Source: Phycisphaerales bacterium (lineage in GTDB: Bacteria > Planctomycetota > Phycisphaerae > Phycisphaerales > UBA1924). From it: DNA of 37,958 bases. The notes under the pieces are model-generated. The model made no database searches. It was not told where the DNA came from and saw nothing but the letters and a program-made list of their open reading frames with translations. Each line of letters starts with the position of its first letter. Positions within the stretch are counted from its first letter, which is position 1. Below are positions 1,354-12,776 of this stretch, piece after piece. The translations under genes and the position numbers were made by a program. The stretch lies in NCBI GenBank assembly GCA_016742055.1, contig JACVCK010000003.1, forward strand, positions 1 through 37,958, in the 5' to 3' direction.

Positions 1354-1433
1354 GGCGTCGGTGGACCCCGCGCCGGGCCGCGATGCCCCGCGCGACGGGC
1401 CCATGCTCCCGCGACCCCTTGGAGGCCCGTCCG

Positions 1434-2633
1434 ATGACCACCTTCGCCAGCAAGCCCGCCGCCGCCCCGCAGAACACCGACCCTCTGACCCTGATCGACG
1501 TGGACCACGTCCGGTTCTACGTCGGCAACGCCAAACAGGCGGCCTACTTCTACGCCCAGTGCTTCGGGTTCCAGGTCGAACAGATCGCGGACCTGACCAC
1601 CGGCTGGCGGAAGAGCGCCCAGTACCTCCTGACCCAGGGCAACATCCGCTTCGTGCTGGAGACGGCGCTGACCGACGACCACCCCGCCGCGAAGGAGTGC
1701 ATGCTCTACGGCGACGGCGTCAAGGACGTCGCCTTCACCGTCTTTAACGCCGAGGCCGCATGGAAGCAGGCGGTGAAGAACGGCGGCAAGTCGGCGATGG
1801 AGCCGACGGAGATCAAGGACGAGAACGGGTCCGTCGTGGTGGCGTCGATCCAGACCTACGGGCGCTGCGTCCACTCCTTCGTCGAACGCCGCGGCGGCTA
1901 CGCCTACGACAAGTTGAAGACCGGCGGAACGTTCGCCCCCTACTTCAAGCGCGTGCCGCAGTTCGCGCTGAACGACTACAACCTCAAGCATCCCTGCGGC
2001 CTGAAGTTCGTGGACCACCTGGTGGGCAACGTCGAACTCGGCGGCATGAACCGCTGGGTGGAGTGGTACGAGAAGGTGCTGGGCTTCTCGATGTTCAAGC
2101 ACTTCGATGACGCCGACATCTCGACGGAGTTCTCGGCGCTGATGAGCAAGGTGATGGCCTCGGGCAACAACCTGATCAAGATGCCCATCAACGAGCCGGC
2201 CGAGGGGAAAAAGAAGAGCCAGGTGCAGGAGTACCTCGACTGGCACAAGAACGTGCCGGGCGTGCAGCACCTGGCGCTGCGAACGGACGACGAACTGCAC
2301 AGCATCTCGGAGTTGCGCCGGCGCGGCGTGGACTTCCTCGCGATCCCCGAAACCTACTACACCCAGGTCTGGGACCGCGTGAACAAGATGCTCACCGCCC
2401 ACGGTCACACCCCGGTCAAGGAAGACCACCAGAAGGTCAAGGACCTGGGCATCCTCGTCGACGCCGACGACGAGGGCTACCTCCTCCAACTCTTCACCAA
2501 GCCCCTGCAGGACCGCCCGACGTTGTTCTTCGAGATCATCTGCCGCCGCGGGAGCCAGAGTTTCGGCAAGGGCAACTTCAAGGCGCTGTTCGAGGCGCTG
2601 GAGCATGAGCAGGAGCGGCGGGGGAATTTGTGA
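1434..2633 (+). CDS. hpd: 4-hydroxyphenylpyruvate dioxygenase
   Basis: Converts 4-hydroxyphenylpyruvate to homogentisate in tyrosine catabolism; cytosolic Fe(II) enzyme. The 399-aa length fits the eukaryote-like HPPD class. Two vicinal-oxygen-chelate domains are visible: residues 20-150 (VDHVRFYVGN) and 190-370. The expected iron ligands are His195 (KFVDHLVGNV), His279 (GVQHLALRT) and Glu367 (FFEIICRRG). The C-terminal GSQSFGKGNFKALFEALE helix that closes the active site is also present. ATG 1434 is preceded by GGAGG (1421-1425) at 8 nt, which rules out the in-frame ATG at 1383. fahA, for a later step of the same pathway, lies 1.3 kb downstream on the opposite strand; homogentisate 1,2-dioxygenase is not in the window. 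Confidence 0.97.
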   Translation: MTTFASKPAAAPQNTDPLTLIDVDHVRFYVGNAKQAAYFYAQCFGFQVEQIADLTTGWRKSAQYLLTQGNIRFVLETALTDDHPAAKECMLYGDGVKDVAFTVFNAEAAWKQAVKNGGKSAMEPTEIKDENGSVVVASIQTYGRCVHSFVERRGGYAYDKLKTGGTFAPYFKRVPQFALNDYNLKHPCGLKFVDHLVGNVELGGMNRWVEWYEKVLGFSMFKHFDDADISTEFSALMSKVMASGNNLIKMPINEPAEGKKKSQVQEYLDWHKNVPGVQHLALRTDDELHSISELRRRGVDFLAIPETYYTQVWDRVNKMLTAHGHTPVKEDHQKVKDLGILVDADDEGYLLQLFTKPLQDRPTLFFEIICRRGSQSFGKGNFKALFEALEHEQERRGNL

Positions 2634-2679
2634 GATGAGGAAGGGTCCCCGGAAGGGCGGCGTTTGGACAAACTTCAAA

Positions 2680-2712
2680 GCCCCCACCCGGCCTTTGGGC
2701 CGGGCGGGGGGC
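2680..2712. terminator. Bidirectional GC-rich hairpin between convergent genes
   Basis: The arms at 2680-2693 and 2698-2712 pair over about 14 bp with one mismatch around a short T-rich loop. It lies 47 nt after the hpd stop and just after the end of the convergent small gene, so it could terminate both. No long U-tract follows on either side. Confidence 0.6.
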
Positions 2713-2722
2713 GCTCAATCCG

Positions 2723-3115
2723 TCACTCCACGCCGATGTGGCGCAGCGCCTCGGCGCGGAGTTTCTGGAAGTCGGTGAGGTCCGGCGCGTCGTCGCGGGA
2801 CTTGGCGAACGCACGCTGGCCATAGGCGTCGGAGAGACGCGCCAGCGTCGTGTCGCGCGTGTCGATCTGCGACTTGTCGCCGTGCTGGTCTTCCACCAGC
2901 ACGAACGGCAGGCACACCTCGAGCACGCGGTACGGGCCGTCGTCCGCCTTCAGGCGGCAACGCAGCACGCCGACCTCGCGGCTGGCGATCGAATCGTCAT
3001 AACACGAGCCCGCGGGGCGCTCGTACACGCGGTAGACCGCGGCCACGAACTGGCCCGGCGCGACATCCTCGGGCGCGAGCGTGCGCACGGACGTGATGGA
3101 GTAGGCGTCAGCCAT
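2723..3115 (-). CDS. Hypothetical protein, 130 aa
   Basis: A soluble acidic protein that I do not recognise. It begins MADAYSITSVRTLAPEDVAPGQFVAAVYRV and has a central beta-rich part with ...GVLRCRLKADDGPYRVLEVCLPFVLVED. It carries three cysteines in total (residues 38, 53 and 68), without a metal-binding spacing. No signal peptide or membrane segment is present. The start is well supported by GGAGG 5 nt upstream (plus-strand 3121-3125). It looks like a lone gene, convergent with hpd. The frame has normal composition for this genome and is probably a lineage-specific conserved protein. Confidence 0.7.
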   Translation of the reverse strand: MADAYSITSVRTLAPEDVAPGQFVAAVYRVYERPAGSCYDDSIASREVGVLRCRLKADDGPYRVLEVCLPFVLVEDQHGDKSQIDTRDTTLARLSDAYGQRAFAKSRDDAPDLTDFQKLRAEALRHIGVE

Positions 3116-3361
3116 GACAACCTCCAGAAAACAGAGGGAAACCAGAACAACGCGATATGGAAGAACTCAGAGCCCCGCAGGGAGCAGCGTCAGTTGACGC
3201 CGCGGCCCATCGCAAGCGCACGACCGCCGAGGGAGCGTTTCGCTCCTTCGGCTTGTCTCATCATGGGTTGATCGTGGCGCATGGGAACCTCTTGAGGGGG
3301 CAATCATGGCGCCGATTCCGGGGGAGTCAAGCCCGAATCAAAATATTGATGGGCCGCACGC

Positions 3362-3931
3362 TCACCAGAGTGAAGCGCCGGTGATCGACCGCTCCAGGTC
3401 CAGCAGGAACGCCTTACGCTCCAGCCCCCCGCCGTAGCCGCGCAGGCCGCCGTCTTTCTGGATCACCCGGTGGCACGGCACGACGATGGCGATGCGGTTC
3501 CGGCCGTTCGCCAGCCCCACGGCCCGCTGCGCGCCCGGGCGTTGCAGCGCGAGCGCCACATCTTCGTACGAGCGCGTCTGGCCGCACGGGATCAGCAGCA
3601 ACTGCTCCCACACGCTCCGCTCCCACGCCGAGCCCCGGAGGTCCAGCGGCACATCAAACGTCGCACGCCTGGCGTCGAAGTACTCCGACAACTGCGCCCG
3701 CACGACGTCGAGGATCGGGTGCGCCGCGTCCGTTGGCTCGGGCGCCGACGTTCCGAACTGCCGCTCGACGTCGCCCATCTCCCGCGCCAGCGCCCGCCGG
3801 TCGTGGAACTCCAGCAGGACCAGCGCCCGCCCGTGAGCGACGGCCAGAAGGGCCCCCACCGGCGAATCGATCCACGTCGCCGCCAGCGCCGTCGGGTCAG
3901 CCGGCCGAACTGTTGGAGCAGCCTTGTCCAT
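3362..3931 (-). CDS. ogt: Methylated-DNA--protein-cysteine methyltransferase
   Basis: Suicide repair enzyme that moves the methyl group from O6-methylguanine (and O4-methylthymine) onto its own cysteine. The 189-aa protein has the usual N-terminal ribonuclease-H-like domain and a C-terminal DNA-binding domain. Residues 151-155 read VPCHRV, with Cys153 as acceptor. The RSYEDVA recognition-helix region and the asparagine hinge (GLANGRNRIAIV) are present. ATG 3931 has an AAGGG just upstream. The gene starts 7 nt after fahA and is probably co-transcribed with it, although the functions are unrelated. Nothing suggests a fused AdaA domain. Confidence 0.95.
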   Translation of the reverse strand: MDKAAPTVRPADPTALAATWIDSPVGALLAVAHGRALVLLEFHDRRALAREMGDVERQFGTSAPEPTDAAHPILDVVRAQLSEYFDARRATFDVPLDLRGSAWERSVWEQLLLIPCGQTRSYEDVALALQRPGAQRAVGLANGRNRIAIVVPCHRVIQKDGGLRGYGGGLERKAFLLDLERSITGASLW

Positions 3932-3938
3932 AAACCCT

Positions 3939-5288
3939 TCAGCGCGACGAGGTCGGCGCCGGCGTCACCACGCCCCGGCACTCGCCCAGCCCAATCCGCC
4001 TCGCCGTCCCGTTCTCACACCAGCCCCGGATGATGACCTCGTCCCCATCCTCGAGGAACTTCCGCGACTCGCCCGTGGGCAGCGCGATCGGCTCGCTCCC
4101 GCGCCACGTGCGCTCCAGCATGCAGCCGCGGGATTCCTTCGTCGTGCCCGACACGGTGCCCGACGCCATGAGATCGCCCGGGCGAAGGTTGCAGCCGTTG
4201 CTCGCGTGGTGCGTGAGCATCTGCGTGATCGTCCAGAACATGTCCCGGAACGAGCCGATGCTCACCCGCGCCGGCGCCAGGCCCTTCTCCCGCATCTTCA
4301 CCGACGCGATCAGGACCTCCAGCGTCAGATCGATCGCCCAAGCCTCGTCTTTCAGGGTCGGCGTCAGGTACGCCAGCGGCGCGGGGTCGCCCTCCGCGCG
4401 GTACGGGCCCGGGAGCCGATACGGGCGCAGCGCGTCGAGCGTCACGATCCACGGCGAAACCGTCGTCGCGAAGTTCTTCGCCAGGAACGGCCCCAGCGGC
4501 TGGTACTCCCACTTCTGGATGTCCCGTGCCGACCAGTCGTTCACCAGGCACACACCGAAAATGTGGTCCGGCGCGGCGTCGATGTCGATCGGCTCGCCAA
4601 GACGATTGCCCGGCCCCACAAAGAACCCCACCTCCAACTCGTGATCGAGCAGGCGCGAGGGTCCGAACGAAGGCGCCGCGGCGTCGTCGGCCTTTGTCTG
4701 CCCCAGCGGCCTCCGCACCGGGCTCCCGCTCACCACCACGCTCGACGCCCGGCCGTGGTAGCCGATCGGCACGTGCTTGTAGTTCGGCAGCAGCGGGTTG
4801 TCCGGGCGGAACATCGAGCCCACGTTCGTCGCGTGGTGCACGCTCGCGTAGAAGTCGGTGTAGTCGCCGATCTCCGCGGGCAGCAGCATCTCCGCACGCG
4901 CCAGGGGGACCAGCGCCCGCTCCCGCAGCGCCGCGTGGTCGCGCACCTTCGACGAACCCTCAAGAAACAACTCGATGATCCGCTCCCGCGCGCTCCGCCA
5001 GGCCGGCCGGCCCATCGCCATGAACTCATTCAGAGTCGGCAGCGCGAACACGTTCTGCCCGGCGATCAGGGAGCCCTCAAAAAGGCCCGACTCGTGCAGC
5101 GCCGACAGGTCGATCACGGTCCCGCCGACGGCCGTGCAGCAGCGGGCGATCTCCTTCGTCCCGGCGCGCCGGAACACCCCGAACGGGATGTTCTGGATGG
5201 GAAAATCGGCGTGCGCGTCGTTGGCGCCGTCGATCCAGGATCGCAGCGCGGGGTCGTTCGTCGGATCGAGCGTCTTGTGTGCGGTCAT
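3939..5288 (-). CDS. fahA: Fumarylacetoacetase
   Basis: Hydrolyses fumarylacetoacetate to fumarate and acetoacetate, the last step of tyrosine and phenylalanine catabolism. The 449-aa length fits the full FAH family with an N-terminal SH3-like part (about residues 1-110) and a catalytic domain. Diagnostic stretches include YHGRASSVVVSG, LDHELEVGFFVG (metal-binding Glu), VNDWSARDIQKWEYQPLGPF (metal-binding Asp) and the C-terminal GTVSG block. ATG 5288 overlaps the stop of the upstream 330-aa gene as ATGA, so the two are translationally coupled; ogt follows 7 nt downstream. The longer in-frame extension to 5411 would run back into the upstream gene and is rejected. Confidence 0.97.
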   Translation of the reverse strand: MTAHKTLDPTNDPALRSWIDGANDAHADFPIQNIPFGVFRRAGTKEIARCCTAVGGTVIDLSALHESGLFEGSLIAGQNVFALPTLNEFMAMGRPAWRSARERIIELFLEGSSKVRDHAALRERALVPLARAEMLLPAEIGDYTDFYASVHHATNVGSMFRPDNPLLPNYKHVPIGYHGRASSVVVSGSPVRRPLGQTKADDAAAPSFGPSRLLDHELEVGFFVGPGNRLGEPIDIDAAPDHIFGVCLVNDWSARDIQKWEYQPLGPFLAKNFATTVSPWIVTLDALRPYRLPGPYRAEGDPAPLAYLTPTLKDEAWAIDLTLEVLIASVKMREKGLAPARVSIGSFRDMFWTITQMLTHHASNGCNLRPGDLMASGTVSGTTKESRGCMLERTWRGSEPIALPTGESRKFLEDGDEVIIRGWCENGTARRIGLGECRGVVTPAPTSSR

Positions 5289-6277
5289 TCGAGAAGGCCC
5301 ATGGCGCGAAGGTCCTGAACCGGCTCCTCGAACGAGCAGGAGCCGAACGAAAGGGCGAGCGTCTCCCGGGCGCGGGCGAGACGGGCGTTGTCCAGACGAA
5401 CCGACTTCCACGCCACGCCCAGATCCCCGAACCGAAGCGCGTCAGCGGAGGACTCGTCCAGCATCGCCGCGAGCGCGCCGGGCGGGCCGTGCTCCGCCTG
5501 CGCCAGCGCTGCGGCCAGGAACACGTTCAAAAACCCGAACATCGTCGCGCGGGGCGGGTTCGGCTCGTAGGTCAGTCGATGCTCGGCCCGCAGCGGATGG
5601 TGCAGCCCGGCCGTCGCCTTGAAGGGCGTCGACGCCGCGGCGCACGCGCCGATGAACCGCGCCAGGTTCTCCACCGTCGGGAACGCCTCGGGCGTCACGC
5701 CCCCGGTTCGGACCTTGGCGCCAACGCCGGGCTCGCCCGCCAGCGCGGTCACCAGGCCCCGCGGGTCGCGGTCGATGGGGATCTCGAAGAACGCCTGCAG
5801 CCCCTCGGGGATGACGTGCAGCGCGCTGTCGATGTGGTTCGGGTTGTCCGCCTTGGTCTCGATGCAATCGACGAGCAGCGCGGGCATGCCGGCGCGGGGC
5901 AGCGGCGCTTCGCCATCGTCCACCGGCTCGGCCTCATCATCCGCGGGGGCGTAGCGGTCGTTGAACGCGTGCGCCGCGTCCAGATCGGCCCGGAGTTTGT
6001 CGCGCTCGCCGGCGCCCGCCACCAGCGCCGTGATCCGCCAGACCCCGCCCCAGGCCTCCTCCGGCCCCGGCGATTCGCACAGCCGCTCGATCGCCTCGGC
6101 GCACTCCCCGAGCCGCGCCGTCGGCAACACCAGCCTCCCCAGCATCCATGCGTGCCGGCCGGCTCGGTGCGCCGCGTAATTGCGGACCGTGGGCGCCATG
6201 TCCAACTTCGCGGGCGGAAAAAGCCCCGCGTAATCGACGATGCCCGACAGCAGCGTGCGGATGCTCTGGGTGCTCAT
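5285..6277 (-). CDS. Conserved protein of unknown function coupled to fahA, 330 aa
   Basis: I cannot assign a function. The protein opens with MSTQSIRTLLSGIVDYAGLFPPAKLDM. Three blocks look like an active-site barrel: GLQAFFEIPIDRDP, VGAKVRTGGVTPEAFPTVENLARFI, and STPFKATAGLHHPLR followed by FGFLNVFLAAA. The strand-loop pattern suggests a TIM-barrel-like fold, with charged or metal-ready residues (Lys-Arg-Thr-Gly-Gly, Lys-Ala-Thr, His-His-Pro). No signal peptide or membrane segment is seen. Its TGA overlaps the fahA ATG (ATGA), a strong sign of a joint role in tyrosine or aromatic catabolism. ATG 6277 fits the conserved-looking N-terminus, and a leader hairpin sits at 6278-6304. Confidence 0.75.
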   Translation of the reverse strand: MSTQSIRTLLSGIVDYAGLFPPAKLDMAPTVRNYAAHRAGRHAWMLGRLVLPTARLGECAEAIERLCESPGPEEAWGGVWRITALVAGAGERDKLRADLDAAHAFNDRYAPADDEAEPVDDGEAPLPRAGMPALLVDCIETKADNPNHIDSALHVIPEGLQAFFEIPIDRDPRGLVTALAGEPGVGAKVRTGGVTPEAFPTVENLARFIGACAAASTPFKATAGLHHPLRAEHRLTYEPNPPRATMFGFLNVFLAAALAQAEHGPPGALAAMLDESSADALRFGDLGVAWKSVRLDNARLARARETLALSFGSCSFEEPVQDLRAMGLLE

Positions 6278-8472: not shown

Positions 8473-9546
8473 TCAGCGGGCGACGACGGGCTGATCGAGC
8501 AGGTCGGCGAACTTCCGCGCCGGCCGTCCCTTCCAGAGTCCGCGGTGGTAGGCGTCGGACGCGAGGATCGGGAACGTCGTGGTCGCCTCCCCGAAGACCA
8601 TCTGCTCGTGCACCACGTCCACCTTGCCCCAGGAGCAGGCCTCGCGGAGCGTGGAGCCCGAGAGCGCCCCGTCGCGCGAGTCGGCGACGGTGAGTTGGAT
8701 GGCGTACTTGTGCATCGGCGCCTCGTGGCCGAGCAACTCCGCGGCGACGACGATGTCCTGCGCGAAGTTCTTGGGCACGCCGCCGCCGAGCATCAGCAGG
8801 CCCGTGTCCTTGACCTTGAGTTTCAGTTGTGTTAGTTCGCGGAAGTCCTTGCCGGAGTCGAACGCCACGTGCGTCCCGGGCTCGGGCCGCTCGACCTGGT
8901 GCATAACGATGCCGAAGCCGGCGGAGCAGTCGGAGAACGCCGGCACGAAGATCGGCACGCGCTTCTTGTGGCACGCGAGCACGATCCCGGGGATGTTCGC
9001 GTGATGCTCGGCCAGGTAGGCGCCCATCTGGTCGATCAGTTCGCGCGAGGAGTAGGCCCCGGGCGCGCAGGAGTCGAAGACCTTCCGGGTCACATCGTCG
9101 CAGATGCGGAGTTGGTCCTCGTCGATGTAGGTGTCGTAGATGCGGTCGATGGCCAGGTCGCGCAGGGTGGTGTCGTCCACGGGCGGCGCCTCGGGCGAGC
9201 CCGGCGCCATGTAGTGCCGGAATCCCAGGCCCTCAAAGAAGTCCTGATCGACGATGTTCGCGCCCGTGGACACGATCGCGTCCACCATGTTGTTCTCGAT
9301 GAGCGTGACGATGGTCTTCTTGAGCCCGGCCGACACCATCGAGCCCGCGAGCGTCAGCACCACCGCGCAGTCCTTGTCCGCGAGCATCATGCCGTAGATG
9401 TCCGCCGCCCGGGCCAGGTTCCGCGCCTGGAACGCCGTGTGGCGCATCCCGTCCACCAGCGCGCGGGCGTCCACGCGCGTGATGTCCACATGCTCGACCG
9501 GGCGAGAGAGCAGTTCCTGCTTCGTCCACTTGCCGCTGCTGGTCAT
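8473..9546 (-). CDS. Deoxyhypusine synthase-like protein (probable polyamine aminobutyltransferase)
   Basis: The 357-aa protein belongs to the deoxyhypusine synthase family, NAD-dependent enzymes that transfer an aminobutyl group from spermidine. Family blocks are clear: TLAGSMVSAGLKKTIVTLIE, DAIVSTGANIVDQDFFE, FVPAFSDCSAGFG and GLLMLGGGVPKNFAQDI. Also present is EACSWGK, whose lysine (Lys308) corresponds to the catalytic lysine of characterised family members. Bacteria lack eIF5A, so the classical substrate is absent; a free amine such as putrescine or agmatine is a plausible acceptor, giving homospermidine or a related polyamine. It lies 76 nt downstream of speA, which supports polyamine metabolism. 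GGGAG is 8 nt before the ATG. The reaction is inferred. Confidence 0.9.
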   Translation of the reverse strand: MTSSGKWTKQELLSRPVEHVDITRVDARALVDGMRHTAFQARNLARAADIYGMMLADKDCAVVLTLAGSMVSAGLKKTIVTLIENNMVDAIVSTGANIVDQDFFEGLGFRHYMAPGSPEAPPVDDTTLRDLAIDRIYDTYIDEDQLRICDDVTRKVFDSCAPGAYSSRELIDQMGAYLAEHHANIPGIVLACHKKRVPIFVPAFSDCSAGFGIVMHQVERPEPGTHVAFDSGKDFRELTQLKLKVKDTGLLMLGGGVPKNFAQDIVVAAELLGHEAPMHKYAIQLTVADSRDGALSGSTLREACSWGKVDVVHEQMVFGEATTTFPILASDAYHRGLWKGRPARKFADLLDQPVVAR

Positions 9547-9622: not shown

Positions 9623-11587
9623 TCACTCTTCGAGGTACGTATAGCCGTCCAGCCCCGCCTCGTAGAAGCGGAGGAACGACTGGCTCTCCGCCACGGTCAG
9701 GCGCTTGGCGCGGACGGCCCGCTCGATCTCGCGGCGCATGTTGCGCCGCAGTTCGTTGTGGTCGATCTGCACGTACGACAGCACCTCGGCCACCGTGTCG
9801 CCGCGCACGACCTCGTCGATCGAGTACTCGCCCGACTCGTCGATCGTCACGTGCACCGCGTGCGTGTCGGCCAGCAGGTTGTGCAGGTCGCCCAGCGTCT
9901 CCTGGTACGCGCCCACCAGGAACGCCGCCAGGTAGTACGGCTCGTCCGGGCGCAGCGCGTGCAGTTCCAGCGCCTTCTTGACGTCGCGCTTGTCCACGAA
10001 CTTGTCGATGCGCCCGTCCGAGTCGCAGGTGATGTCCGCCAGCACGCCCCGGCGCGTGGGCTCCTCGTCCAGGCGGTGGATCGGGCAGATCGGGAACAAC
10101 TGATCGATCGCCCACGAGTCCGGCATCGACTGGAAGATCGACATGTTCACGAAGTAGATGTCCGACAGGATCTCCGGCAGGCCGTCCAGTTCCTCCGGCA
10201 TCTCCTTGAACTTCACGGCGCGGTCGAGGATCTTCCGGCCCACCGACCAGAACAGCCGCTCGGCGATCGCCCGCATCGGCAGCGACATGTAGCCCAGCGA
10301 GAACAAACTCATCGCCTCGTCCCGCGCCTGCATGGCGTCGTGGTACGACTCCATCAGGTTCCGGTCCGTCAGGTTCTGGCTCGTCTGGATCAGGTCGATG
10401 ACCGGCTGGGGCACCTCCTGCTCGGCCGCCATCGCCGCCTCCAGTTCGTCCGGCTCCGGCGCCGCGTCGAACGAGGTCGCGCCACGAACGTCGAAGATCA
10501 GCACGCTCGAGTACGCCACCATCGCCCGCCCGGACTCCGACATGATCGTCGGGTGCGGCGCCCCCACGTCGTCGCAGACGCTCTTGATGCGGTACACCAC
10601 GTCCGCGGCGTACTCGGCGATCGTGTAGTTCATCGACGAGTCGAACGCCGTCTGCGAGCCGTCGTAGTCCACGCCCAGCCCGCCGCCGATGTCGATGATG
10701 TCGAGTTTCTCGGCCCCCAGCCGGCGCAGTTCGGTGTAGATGTGCGTCAGTTCGTTGATCGCGTTCTTGAGGTTGCGGATGTCGCAGATCTGGCTGCCGA
10801 TGTGGAAGTGCAGCATCCGCAGGCAGTCCAGCATGTCGTGCTTGCGCAGGTAATCCAGAACCGTCAGCAGTTCCGAGATGAACAGCCCGAACTTCGAGCG
10901 CACCCCCGACGAGCCCTCCCACCGGCCCGAGCCCTTCGCCGCGATCTTGATCCGCACGCCGATCTGCGGGCGCACGTCGTACCGCTGCGCGTGCTTGACG
11001 ATCAACTCCAGTTCGCTGAACTTCTCGACCACGGGGATGATGTTCCGCCCGAGTTTGGTCGCGAGGATCACCGTCTCGATGAACTCATCGTCCTTGAAGC
11101 CATTGCAAACGATGGGCATGTCCGGCCGGTTCTCGCTCATGCCCAGCACCGCGAGCAGTTCCGGCTTCGAGCCCGCCTCCAGCCCGTAGCCCAGCGACGC
11201 GCCCAGGTCGCGGATCTCCTCGACCACGTGGCGCTGCTGGTTCACCTTGATCGGGTACACGCACTTGTAGCCGCCCTTGTAGTCGTGCTCGGCGATCGCG
11301 CGCGTGAACGCCGAAGACAACTCCTCCAGCCGCCGACGCAGAATGTCCGTAAACCGCACCAGCACCGGCGCGCCCAGACCGCGATCGTGCAGTCCCCGCA
11401 CCAGTTCGAGCAGGTCGATCGCCAGCGCCGGCTCCTTCGTGGGCGTGACCACCACGTGGCCCTTGTCGTTCACTCGGAAGAAGCCCTGGCCCCAGTCGGG
11501 CAGGCCGTACAGACGCGCCGAGTCTTCGGGCGTCCAGCGCCCGTGCAGGAACGCGTTCTTCATCGACTGACCGGCGATCGTGGCCAT
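9623..11587 (-). CDS. speA: Biosynthetic arginine decarboxylase
   Basis: PLP enzyme converting arginine to agmatine, the entry to polyamine synthesis. The 654-aa length matches the SpeA (alanine-racemase-fold) class. Lys114 in KCVYPIKVNQQRHV is the PLP lysine. Other marks are LEAGSKPEL, FHIGSQICDIRN, the phosphate-binding IDIGGGLGVDYDGSQ, and the C-terminal CPIHRLDEEPTRRGVLADITCDSDG with the substrate-binding Cys and Asp. ATG 11587 gives a normal N-terminus. It is first in a likely operon with the DHS-like gene and the methyltransferase, driven by the promoter at 11680-11706. No agmatinase or agmatine deiminase gene is adjacent. Confidence 0.97.
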   Translation of the reverse strand: MATIAGQSMKNAFLHGRWTPEDSARLYGLPDWGQGFFRVNDKGHVVVTPTKEPALAIDLLELVRGLHDRGLGAPVLVRFTDILRRRLEELSSAFTRAIAEHDYKGGYKCVYPIKVNQQRHVVEEIRDLGASLGYGLEAGSKPELLAVLGMSENRPDMPIVCNGFKDDEFIETVILATKLGRNIIPVVEKFSELELIVKHAQRYDVRPQIGVRIKIAAKGSGRWEGSSGVRSKFGLFISELLTVLDYLRKHDMLDCLRMLHFHIGSQICDIRNLKNAINELTHIYTELRRLGAEKLDIIDIGGGLGVDYDGSQTAFDSSMNYTIAEYAADVVYRIKSVCDDVGAPHPTIMSESGRAMVAYSSVLIFDVRGATSFDAAPEPDELEAAMAAEQEVPQPVIDLIQTSQNLTDRNLMESYHDAMQARDEAMSLFSLGYMSLPMRAIAERLFWSVGRKILDRAVKFKEMPEELDGLPEILSDIYFVNMSIFQSMPDSWAIDQLFPICPIHRLDEEPTRRGVLADITCDSDGRIDKFVDKRDVKKALELHALRPDEPYYLAAFLVGAYQETLGDLHNLLADTHAVHVTIDESGEYSIDEVVRGDTVAEVLSYVQIDHNELRRNMRREIERAVRAKRLTVAESQSFLRFYEAGLDGYTYLEE

Positions 11588-11679
11588 CGGCGCGTGCGCC
11601 TCTCGGATGGAGGGTGCGGGCAGGGCCGGAGTCGCCGCGGCTGTCGTGCCGCGTCGCCCGCGCCGTCGGAGCAAAGGGA

Positions 11680-11706
11680 AGTATAGACCCCCGCGCCGGG
11701 AATCAA
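11680..11706 (-). promoter_or_regulatory. Candidate speA promoter (TTGATT / TATACT)
   Basis: On the minus strand TTGATT (11706-11701) is followed after 15 nt by TATACT (11685-11680), an excellent -10 in very GC-rich DNA. The spacer is shorter than ideal. Transcription would start near 11673, giving an 85-nt leader. The -35 overlaps the end of the glycosylase gene. Confidence 0.5.
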
Positions 11707-12776
11707 CGCCGACTTTTCGCGCCGCCCGCCGGCGACGACCGCCGGCGCGCCCCGCCAGCCCCCGGCGCGCCGCCGGACCCCTCGGCGCGGAACTTGGACG
11801 CCGTGAACGACGAGCCCACCTCGTCCGGGTCCCACGCCCAGGACGGCCCCCGGCGCTCCTCGTACCACCGCCAGACCTCGAACCAGTACGAGCGGAACCG
11901 GTGGTCGCCAAAGCCCGCGTAATGGGCCTCCAGCCGCTTCTGAACCTCCCGGTCCGTCCCCTTGAGCCCCAAAACCTCCCGCCCGTGCCGCACCGACTCG
12001 GTGTCGATCGCCAGGCGCGAGTACCGCCCCAGGAGTTGCATGATGTTCCCGGCGCCGTAAGGCCCGATCCCCGGAAGTTCCAGCAGCGCCTTGTAAACCG
12101 TCTGGTCGTCATTCGCCGGGTCGGTGAACCAATGCTCATCCAACTCCCCCGACGTCGCCATCTGCGCCAACCGCACCAGCCGGACGTCGCGATACCCCAC
12201 GGCGCAACGGGCCCGCAGCGTCGAAGGCCGCACCCGCGCCAGTTTCTGCGGCGAGGGAAACGCCGGGTGGACCACCGCGCAAAGGCGGCGGTTCATCCCC
12301 ACGGTGTTCGGCCACGCCACGTTGCAGGAGGTGACCGTCTTCACGACATCTTCAAAGAACGTGGGGCTCCGCGACAGCCGTGCGCGGCCCAGCCCAGGCC
12401 CCCCGCTCGCCCATCGAGGGTCGATCCGGTGGAACTCCGCCACACCCCCGTCCCCCATGCTCAGCATTCGGGCGATCAGCCCCGCCGCCTCGGTCTTCTC
12501 CCGACGGCTCAGGGCCCGGTCCGCCACCACCGCCAGCGGCGCCCCGGCCAGCCCCAGCAACGCCCGGCCGTCCGCGTTCCGGCCCAGAGTCGCGCCCTCC
12601 GGGCCCGGCTGGCCGATCGTCAGCGTGGCGACGCCCCCGTCCAGGTCGAACGGGCGCGTCAGCGTCTGCTTCGACGGATCCCAGCGGTTCGGCGCCAGCA
12701 GGAAATAGCCGTAAGAACACAGGTCCCGGGCGAACACCAGGTCGTCCGGGACCGGGATGGTGAAACGGCTGCCCAC
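11703..12776 (-). CDS. HhH-GPD DNA glycosylase (Ogg1/AlkA-like)
   Basis: Base-excision repair glycosylase of the helix-hairpin-helix superfamily. In the 357-aa protein the HhH motif is LPGIGPYGAGNIMQLLGRY and the catalytic Asp follows in SRLAIDTESV. The upstream region SRSPTFFEDVVKTVTSCNVAWPNTVGMNRRLC resembles the start of the Ogg1/AlkA core, including the Asn-rich loop. The N-terminal 110 residues form a beta-rich domain. The lysine of bifunctional enzymes cannot be placed with confidence. The C-terminal 35 residues are low-complexity Gly/Ala/Arg and probably disordered. The GTG start lies 4 nt after the amidotransferase stop, so the two form an operon. Damaged base unknown. Confidence 0.85.
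   Translation of the reverse strand: MGSRFTIPVPDDLVFARDLCSYGYFLLAPNRWDPSKQTLTRPFDLDGGVATLTIGQPGPEGATLGRNADGRALLGLAGAPLAVVADRALSRREKTEAAGLIARMLSMGDGGVAEFHRIDPRWASGGPGLGRARLSRSPTFFEDVVKTVTSCNVAWPNTVGMNRRLCAVVHPAFPSPQKLARVRPSTLRARCAVGYRDVRLVRLAQMATSGELDEHWFTDPANDDQTVYKALLELPGIGPYGAGNIMQLLGRYSRLAIDTESVRHGREVLGLKGTDREVQKRLEAHYAGFGDHRFRSYWFEVWRWYEERRGPSWAWDPDEVGSSFTASKFRAEGSGGAPGAGGARRRSSPAGGAKSRR

Follow-up and report, generated by a model that had tools for sequence, protein, structure and literature searches.

Identification of gene X upstream of fahA

During our analysis of a 37,958-nucleotide stretch of contig JACVCK010000003.1 from a Phycisphaerales bacterium (GCA_016742055.1; hereafter the window) we were faced with the question of which enzyme acts between homogentisate dioxygenase (HGD) and fumarylacetoacetase (FahA) in an organism that has a fahA gene and no recognizable gene for the maleylacetoacetate isomerase MaiA. 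The lack of maiA, which the original prediction for this locus had claimed from the window, also held for the available genome sequence, only 70% complete, in which we saw no matches to MaiA at E ≤ 0.001. That prediction had also described a 330-residue gene, here called X, that overlaps fahA by ATGA, and both the translation and the sequence at 5288–5285 bore this out; judged from this arrangement, X and fahA are likely to be translationally coupled. The features of the locus are as follows.

1431–2630, forward strand: hppD, encoding 4-hydroxyphenylpyruvate dioxygenase (HPPD) of the same pathway (TIGR01263, 382.9 bits against a cut-off of 277)
3939–5288, reverse strand: fahA, encoding fumarylacetoacetase (449 residues), the next pathway step (TIGR01266, 585.8 bits against a cut-off of 375.3)
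5285–5288, reverse strand: ATGA, in which the stop codon of X (TGA, 5287–5285) overlaps the start of fahA at an offset of −4 nt (read from the sequence)
5285–6277, reverse strand: gene X, 330 residues with its ATG at 6277, a predicted glutathione-independent maleylacetoacetate isomerase (translation; no Pfam or NCBIfam match; AlphaFold model)

The hppD gene is 1.3 kb past fahA on the opposite strand, and a candidate HGD (L245) is on another contig of the genome, C130. Although L245 scored only 48.7 bits against TIGR01015, it has 72% identity to the HGD near fahA in another genome (G197), and on sequence grounds it is likely to be the homogentisate dioxygenase of the window's genome.

Database searches placed X in no described family. 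There was no match to Pfam or NCBIfam at E ≤ 1, and when 80 X relatives were compared with Pfam no family was matched by more than one of them at E ≤ 10. A sequence search of the PDB returned no close relative, the only match being to CD14 at a chance-level E-value (0.044), and a search of PDB sequences with the X profile gave stomatin (E-value 0.16) and nine weaker matches, all attributable to chance. A chance open reading frame was ruled out, as X has 29 relatives with 35–53% identity that align over almost its full length, and its conservation in 123 aligned members identifies it as a genuine gene. Two stretches in viral contigs fit a pattern, neither of them encoding a relative. A text search of the literature, which covered few subscription papers and no preprints, found no paper naming the X family.

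Distribution of X and its co-occurrence with FahA and MaiA

Of 198 genomes from the window's class, 36 had X; we refer to this class as Phycisphaerae, since Phycisphaerales is the title given to most of the closest relatives with a name. A scan of GTDB genome contigs identified at least 579 confirmed X coding stretches. The best 80 of these were retained for locus analysis; by record title they were mainly from Planctomycetota, with others from Acidobacteriota, Gemmatimonadota, Chloroflexota, Chlorobi/Ignavibacteria, and Cyanobacteria. X was also found in 23 plasmid records, from Streptomyces, Pseudonocardia, Rhodococcus, Nonomuraea, Priestia, and Kovacikia, and in Tsukamurella, where it was located by synteny and then confirmed by profile (E-value 2e-42). 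In every Streptomyces, Pseudonocardia, Rhodococcus, Tsukamurella, and Priestia operon that we examined, X was annotated as a hypothetical protein.

X, FahA, and MaiA were each sought in three genome draws, comprising 198 genomes from the window's class, 119 from the phylum to which an Acidobacteriaceae record (G225) belongs, and 198 from that of an Ignavibacteria record (G213), which we take to be Bacteroidota in GTDB. These 515 genomes include the centres of the draws (G000, G225, and G213), in which X is present by choice. X was detected in 84 genomes, and 83 of these 84 carriers also had FahA (80 of 81 if the centre genomes are left out). The window's class had X in 36 genomes and FahA in 37, with both in 35, X only in one, fahA only in two, and neither in 160 (p = 2.5e-35); in the phylum of G225, X was found in 18 and FahA in 22, with both in 18, X only in none, fahA only in four, and neither in 97 (p = 7.9e-18); and in the phylum of G213, X was found in 30 and FahA in 75, with both in 30, X only in none, fahA only in 45, and neither in 123 (p = 2.6e-15). 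The limit of the FahA search was E ≤ 1e-60 and all 134 FahA matches were above the curated cut-off; none of 14 control genomes matched, so this search had no positive control among them. The sole carrier in the draws without detected FahA (G171) has an HGD-like sequence, and its X (L223) departs from the rest of the family at G192, G193, and A223. The distance matrices of X and FahA were correlated (Mantel r of 0.78 for 65 pairs, with 0 of 2000 shuffles as high), to which we give little weight because shared ancestry alone would produce such a correlation.

MaiA (TIGR01262) was found above the cut-off in none of the 515 genomes of the draws, with only matches at E ≤ 1e-15 considered in the phylum of G213, and in none of 41 genomes holding other X loci (this search covers 41 of the best 80 loci, and three of the genomes are also in the draws). 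Nor were there MaiA-like stretches in 158 loci around X, some of them overlapping, these being the 163 loci scanned minus a Sphingobium control and four glutathione transferase (GST) loci. As positive controls, the Sphingobium MaiA scored 254.3 bits against the cut-off of 171.05, and three of 14 control genomes matched, one of these above the cut-off. GST matches below the maiA cut-off occurred in three of the 198 genomes of the window's class, 24 of the 119 in the phylum of G225 (best score 90.4 bits), and three of the 41 genomes with other X loci (best score 80.7 bits); the X carriers with such weak matches were G270, G306, and G319 in the phylum of G225 and G219, G231, and G232 in the set of 41. 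Two distributions that had been named as arguing against the original prediction, namely X occurring mainly without tyrosine genes and X carriers also having a standard maiA, are thus both contradicted, the former by fahA in all but one of the 84 carriers and the latter by the lack of any maiA match above the cut-off in the draws and the 41 genomes and of any MaiA-like stretch in the 158 loci.

FahA was more widespread than X: 51 of the 134 fahA genomes in the draws had no detected X and no MaiA above the cut-off. This indicates that fahA can work without both, whether by way of a third enzyme, non-enzymatic thiols, or an X that was missed. The X profile found nothing over up to ~6 kb on each side of fahA in these 51 genomes, and clustering of open reading frames of at least 120 residues in the 51 loci gave no plausible candidate for a substitute enzyme beside fahA. 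The recurring families there, to which we assigned names by eye, were glyA-like (17 of 51), flavin-reductase-like (11), an unnamed family (10) that probably consists of antisense frames, HGD (8), and HPPD (6).

Gene order at X loci

In 57 of the 84 carriers (25 of 36 in the window's class, 15 of 18 in the phylum of G225, and 17 of 30 in that of G213) X immediately precedes fahA and shares its strand. Seven of the remaining carriers have fahA within 10 kb, and in 20 it is far away, on another contig, or absent; of the 83 genomes with both genes, 19 have the two far apart or on different contigs. Among the best 80 of the at least 579 X loci (3–21 kb in length), at least 61 contained fahA, at least 17 HGD, and at least 14 HPPD, and in three of the 61 fahA was on the strand opposite to X.

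Six acidobacterial loci (L074, L085, L089, L094, L103, and L104) have the order HPPD-HGD-X-FAH, with HGD matches that are 24–45% identical to the query sequences. HPPD, HGD, and FAH were all above their NCBIfam cut-offs in L094; in L104 HPPD was above and HGD (59.7 bits) below, and the HGDs of L049 and L087 were also below. The same four-gene order is found in Tsukamurella, HGD-X-FAH occurs on plasmids of Streptomyces, Pseudonocardia, and Rhodococcus (the HGD in the two Rhodococcus plasmid records being annotated only as a cupin protein), and Priestia has HPPD-X-fahA-hisC-HGD. All 23 plasmid records with X were also, when matched by accession, among the 119 records with fahA. For comparison, the order in a Sphingobium operon with MaiA is phhA-HPPD-HGD-FAH-MaiA. 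In two cyanobacterial loci (L087 and L105) X is beside HGD and HPPD, and since cyanobacteria make glutathione, the absence of glutathione is not the whole rule for the occurrence of X.

On one Streptomyces plasmid we observed a protein of the mycothiol-dependent maleylpyruvate isomerase (MDMPI) family encoded two genes upstream of X-FAH. It scored 56.9 bits against PF11716 and 39.9 bits against TIGR03083, the latter below the cut-off of 50, and the 10.8 kb around X on this plasmid had no annotated HGD. Neither this plasmid nor the cyanobacterial loci nor the 51 fahA genomes lacking a detected X fit the proposed role neatly, yet they are not in conflict with an isomerase function.

Predicted structure and invariant residues

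An AlphaFold model of X built with 80 sequences was an eight-strand (beta/alpha)8 barrel (pLDDT 94.7, pTM 0.92), so that the TIM barrel raised as a possibility in the original prediction is confidently predicted. A second model, of the Leptolyngbyaceae member L105 built with 36 sequences, none from Phycisphaerales, was likewise a barrel (pLDDT 94.9, pTM 0.92). When the X model was realigned to the 1000 best PDB chains from Foldseek, the top 44 rows were deoxyribose-phosphate aldolase (DERA) or DERA designs, with Z-scores from 15.3 (rmsd 3.4, 218 aligned) down to 13.4, followed by pyruvate kinase at 12.9; the top matches included 1ktn, 1jcl, 1jcj, 1mzh, and KE70 designs, which we take to be DERA. 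With the L105 model, DERA occupied rows 1–39 (Z-scores of 14.4 to 12.9) and pyruvate kinase scored 12.9, a lead of only 1.5 Z. Plain Foldseek E-values were weak for both models, and the plain search with the X model ranked pyruvate kinase top. Going by these models, a DERA-type (beta/alpha)8 barrel appears to be the closest description of X.

Sequence comparisons did not detect this resemblance: the DeoC profile matched none of 80 X members at E ≤ 10, an hhalign comparison of the X family with 11 DERAs was not significant (P 0.043, probability 1.2%), and a comparison limited to E. coli DERA produced no alignment that could be used. We used the comparison with the 11 DERAs solely for register, and in this non-significant alignment the lysines K188 and K220 of X fall opposite Lys167 and Lys201, respectively, of E. 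coli DERA. In the latter enzyme Lys167 is the Schiff-base lysine, on strand 6, and Lys201 is a second lysine, on strand 7. DERA also has a catalytic Asp102 on strand 4, with which the register of E140, invariant in 123 of 123 members and on predicted strand 4 of X, could not be set.

Thirteen residues were invariant in all 123 aligned X members (E140, E165, K188, R190, K220, T222, G224, L225, H226, G248, G312, C314, and P319), and D15 was conserved in 122 with one gap. The model predicts eight of the conserved residues to be at, or slightly beyond, the C-terminal end of a strand: D15 (strand 1), E140 (strand 4), E165 (strand 5), K188 and R190 (strand 6), K220 and H226 (strand 7), and C314 (strand 8). 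The C-terminal strand ends are where barrel active sites lie, so the invariant residues are placed as they would be in an active site. This agrees with the earlier suggestion that the KVRTGG (residues 188–193) and FKATAGLHHP (residues 219–228) blocks look like an active site, as both contribute invariant Lys, Arg, or His residues within the predicted barrel. The codons concerned are these.

5333–5344, reverse strand: Gly312–Ser315 (GSCS) at the end of strand 8 (strand 308–313), with Cys314 as candidate nucleophile; G312 and C314 unchanged in all 123 members
5597–5620, reverse strand: Lys220–His227 (KATAGLHH), strand 7 (strand 219–222) and the next loop; K220, T222, G224, L225, and H226 invariant in 123 of 123
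5708–5716, reverse strand: Lys188-Val189-Arg190 in strand 6 (strand 185–190), with Lys188 as predicted Schiff-base lysine; K188 and R190 unchanged in all 123 members

A divergent form, encoded away from fahA, occurs in six of the 30 X carriers in the phylum of G213; it lacks R190, H226, and C314 and retains K188, K220, and E140. The function of these forms has probably been lost or changed, and they would mark R190, H226, and C314 as the residues tied to the link with fahA.

Proposed function and alternative explanations

X almost certainly acts in homogentisate (tyrosine/phenylalanine) catabolism, and from its pathway context we consider it probable that X is a maleylacetoacetate isomerase that is not homologous to MaiA. 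What the sequences contribute to this reading is the pathway link, the operon slot, the carriers' lack of maiA, and a set of invariant residues; what prediction contributes is a barrel closest to DERA in which strands 6 and 7 each bear a conserved lysine. The unrelated isomerase that had been hypothesized for this locus is therefore well supported by co-occurrence, maiA absence, and a predicted barrel with its invariant residues, though not proven.

In the reaction we propose, X would convert maleylacetoacetate, the product of HGD, to fumarylacetoacetate, which the coupled FahA would then cleave. Lys188, its pKa lowered by Lys220, would condense with one of the ketones of maleylacetoacetate to a Schiff base, and the resulting conjugated iminium would render C2 electrophilic, allowing Cys314 or an activated water to add there; the C2-C3 bond would rotate while single, and departure of the nucleophile would leave a trans double bond. 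Arg190 and His226 might hold the carboxylates or shuttle protons. We favour Lys188 as the Schiff-base residue by a modest margin, from its position, and regard Cys314 as covalent catalyst more tentatively, as somewhat less probable than the reverse. With the nucleophile supplied by the protein itself, X would need no glutathione. A DERA barrel re-engineered for Michael addition via a Schiff base is described in the title of PDB entry 7p76. Our fullest reading, conceivable and held with less than even confidence, is that this unnamed family arose from a class I aldolase barrel of the DERA type and became a cis-trans isomerase that needs neither cofactor nor thiol, whose covalent mechanism draws on both an iminium lysine and a cysteine of the protein, and which fills the MaiA gap of homogentisate catabolism in about eight phyla.

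The retention of both lysines and the aldolase as nearest fold would also suit a lyase or hydratase of the class I aldolase type, working as a repair enzyme on a pathway by-product, e.g., cyclised or over-oxidised maleylacetoacetate or succinylacetone, with isomerisation left to thiols or FahA, and the 51 of 134 fahA genomes that, as far as searched, have neither X nor maiA are in keeping with this. We think it unlikely, however, as the HPPD-HGD-X-FAH order tracks the pathway with X in the slot of MaiA, and as a repair enzyme would be expected beside maiA too, whereas X was in no Sphingobium maiA-fahA plasmid record (one operon was fully read). The aldolase-like barrel could likewise belong to a branch enzyme, the other option offered in the original prediction, that cleaves maleylacetoacetate directly by hydrolysis or retro-aldol reaction and so bypasses FahA. 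Such a bypass would make fahA dispensable, yet 83 of the 84 carriers retain fahA, usually adjoining X, and in the sole carrier without it (G171) X is the one with altered glycines and alanine described above, making this explanation very improbable.

Less probable still, and in our view barely credible, is that X serves FahA as a non-catalytic partner, chaperone, or regulator. While the overlap of the two genes would suit such a role, 13 residues invariant in 123 of 123 members and the catalytic-type side chains at the C-terminal strand ends of the model would not; of the 83 genomes that have both genes, 19 encode X at a distance from fahA or on a separate contig, and a further 51 fahA genomes have no detected X. 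A maleylacetoacetate isomerase unrelated to MaiA continues to be our preferred reading of X.

Comparison with known enzymes

Maleylacetoacetate isomerase is an annotation gap in the tyrosine degradation of large bacterial groups, and X is called hypothetical even inside HGD-X-fahA operons. Naming the X family would close this gap in members of Planctomycetota, Acidobacteriota, Gemmatimonadota, Chloroflexota, Actinomycetota, Bacillota, Bacteroidota, and Cyanobacteriota, and would offer a test based on a single gene. The lysine-cysteine mechanism, if true, would be a second chemistry, reached by convergence, for a step at which the textbook enzyme needs glutathione.

That enzyme, MaiA, a zeta-class glutathione transferase (TIGR01262), shares with X the same predicted reaction and the same place between HGD and FahA. 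Use of glutathione by zeta-class transferases to isomerise maleylacetoacetate is described in PMC10950700. X differs from MaiA in having no match to TIGR01262 (nor to any NCBIfam family at E ≤ 1) and, by the maiA cut-off, the two were not found here in the same genomes. Their folds also differ, that of MaiA being a thioredoxin-like GST fold and that of X a (beta/alpha)8 barrel predicted in two members (pLDDT 94.7 and 94.9).

Among other cis-trans isomerases, the DinB-like MDMPI of actinobacteria acts on a ring-cleavage product without glutathione, as we propose for X. X nevertheless has no match to PF11716 or TIGR03083 at E ≤ 1 (MDMPI_C was matched by one of 80 X members at a chance-level E-value of 6.5), and the fold class of MDMPI differs from the predicted barrel. 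Maleate isomerase, of the Asp/Glu racemase superfamily, uses a cysteine of the protein as the nucleophile in a cis-trans isomerisation, similar to the role proposed for Cys314; its fold is again different from the predicted barrel, and X matches no Pfam family.

The closest structural resemblance is to DERA, which like X has lysines on strands 6 and 7, spaced by 34 residues in the E. coli enzyme and 32 in X. By eye, the two also share an Asp close to the N-terminus (D15 in X, D16 in DERA) and a glycine motif after strand 8, Gly-x-Cys in X (G312, C314) and Gly-x-Ser in DERA (G236, S238). The stretch that separates the strand-7 lysine from the strand-8 glycine is ~57 residues longer in X than in DERA (92 versus 35), and X has a Cys where DERA, by eye, has Ser238, and in addition Arg190 and His226. 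X associates with tyrosine genes, and this genome context favours a substrate other than deoxyribose 5-phosphate.

Homogentisate dioxygenase-like proteins and relatives of X

Our search of the 198 genomes of the window's class (Phycisphaerae) with the homogentisate dioxygenase model TIGR01015 found matching proteins in 54, with best scores of 32-68 bits, and in none of these 54 genomes was the model's cut-off of 510.75 reached. The window's own genome encodes one such protein, and there are further examples in genomes G177, G197 and others:

L245 (contig C130 of the window's genome), 924-2243: homogentisate dioxygenase-like protein

In several genomes of the class fahA lies close to a gene for such a protein, and standard annotation may have overlooked the group.

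We also noted a divergent form of X, the predicted maleylacetoacetate isomerase, in six genomes from the phylum of G213:

L166-L171: divergent X

These proteins retain both lysines (K188 and K220, window numbering) and lack R190, H226 and C314; their genes lie away from fahA, and they possibly have a new function. The X of locus L059, from Leptolyngbya sp. PLA1 (a cyanobacterium by title), clusters with sequences from records of Phycisphaerae and Phycisphaerales at a support of 100/97, in an analysis whose bootstrap had not settled, and the bin title looks wrong.

Neighboring genes

Two neighbors of X and fahA were seen elsewhere:

L228 (plasmid of Streptomyces), 3346-4002: mycothiol maleylpyruvate isomerase-family protein, two genes ahead of X-fahA
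L248 (genome G518), 2561-5353: subtilase with S-layer-homology domain and sorting tail, opposite strand, between X and fahA

In four other genomes of the sample containing G518 the gap has the same size, 3 kb.

The window itself carries two adjoining genes, a pair found here in a bacterium, which are perhaps for polyamine synthesis:

8473-9546, minus strand: deoxyhypusine-synthase-like protein (PF01916, 303.5 bits)
9623-12139, minus strand: arginine decarboxylase
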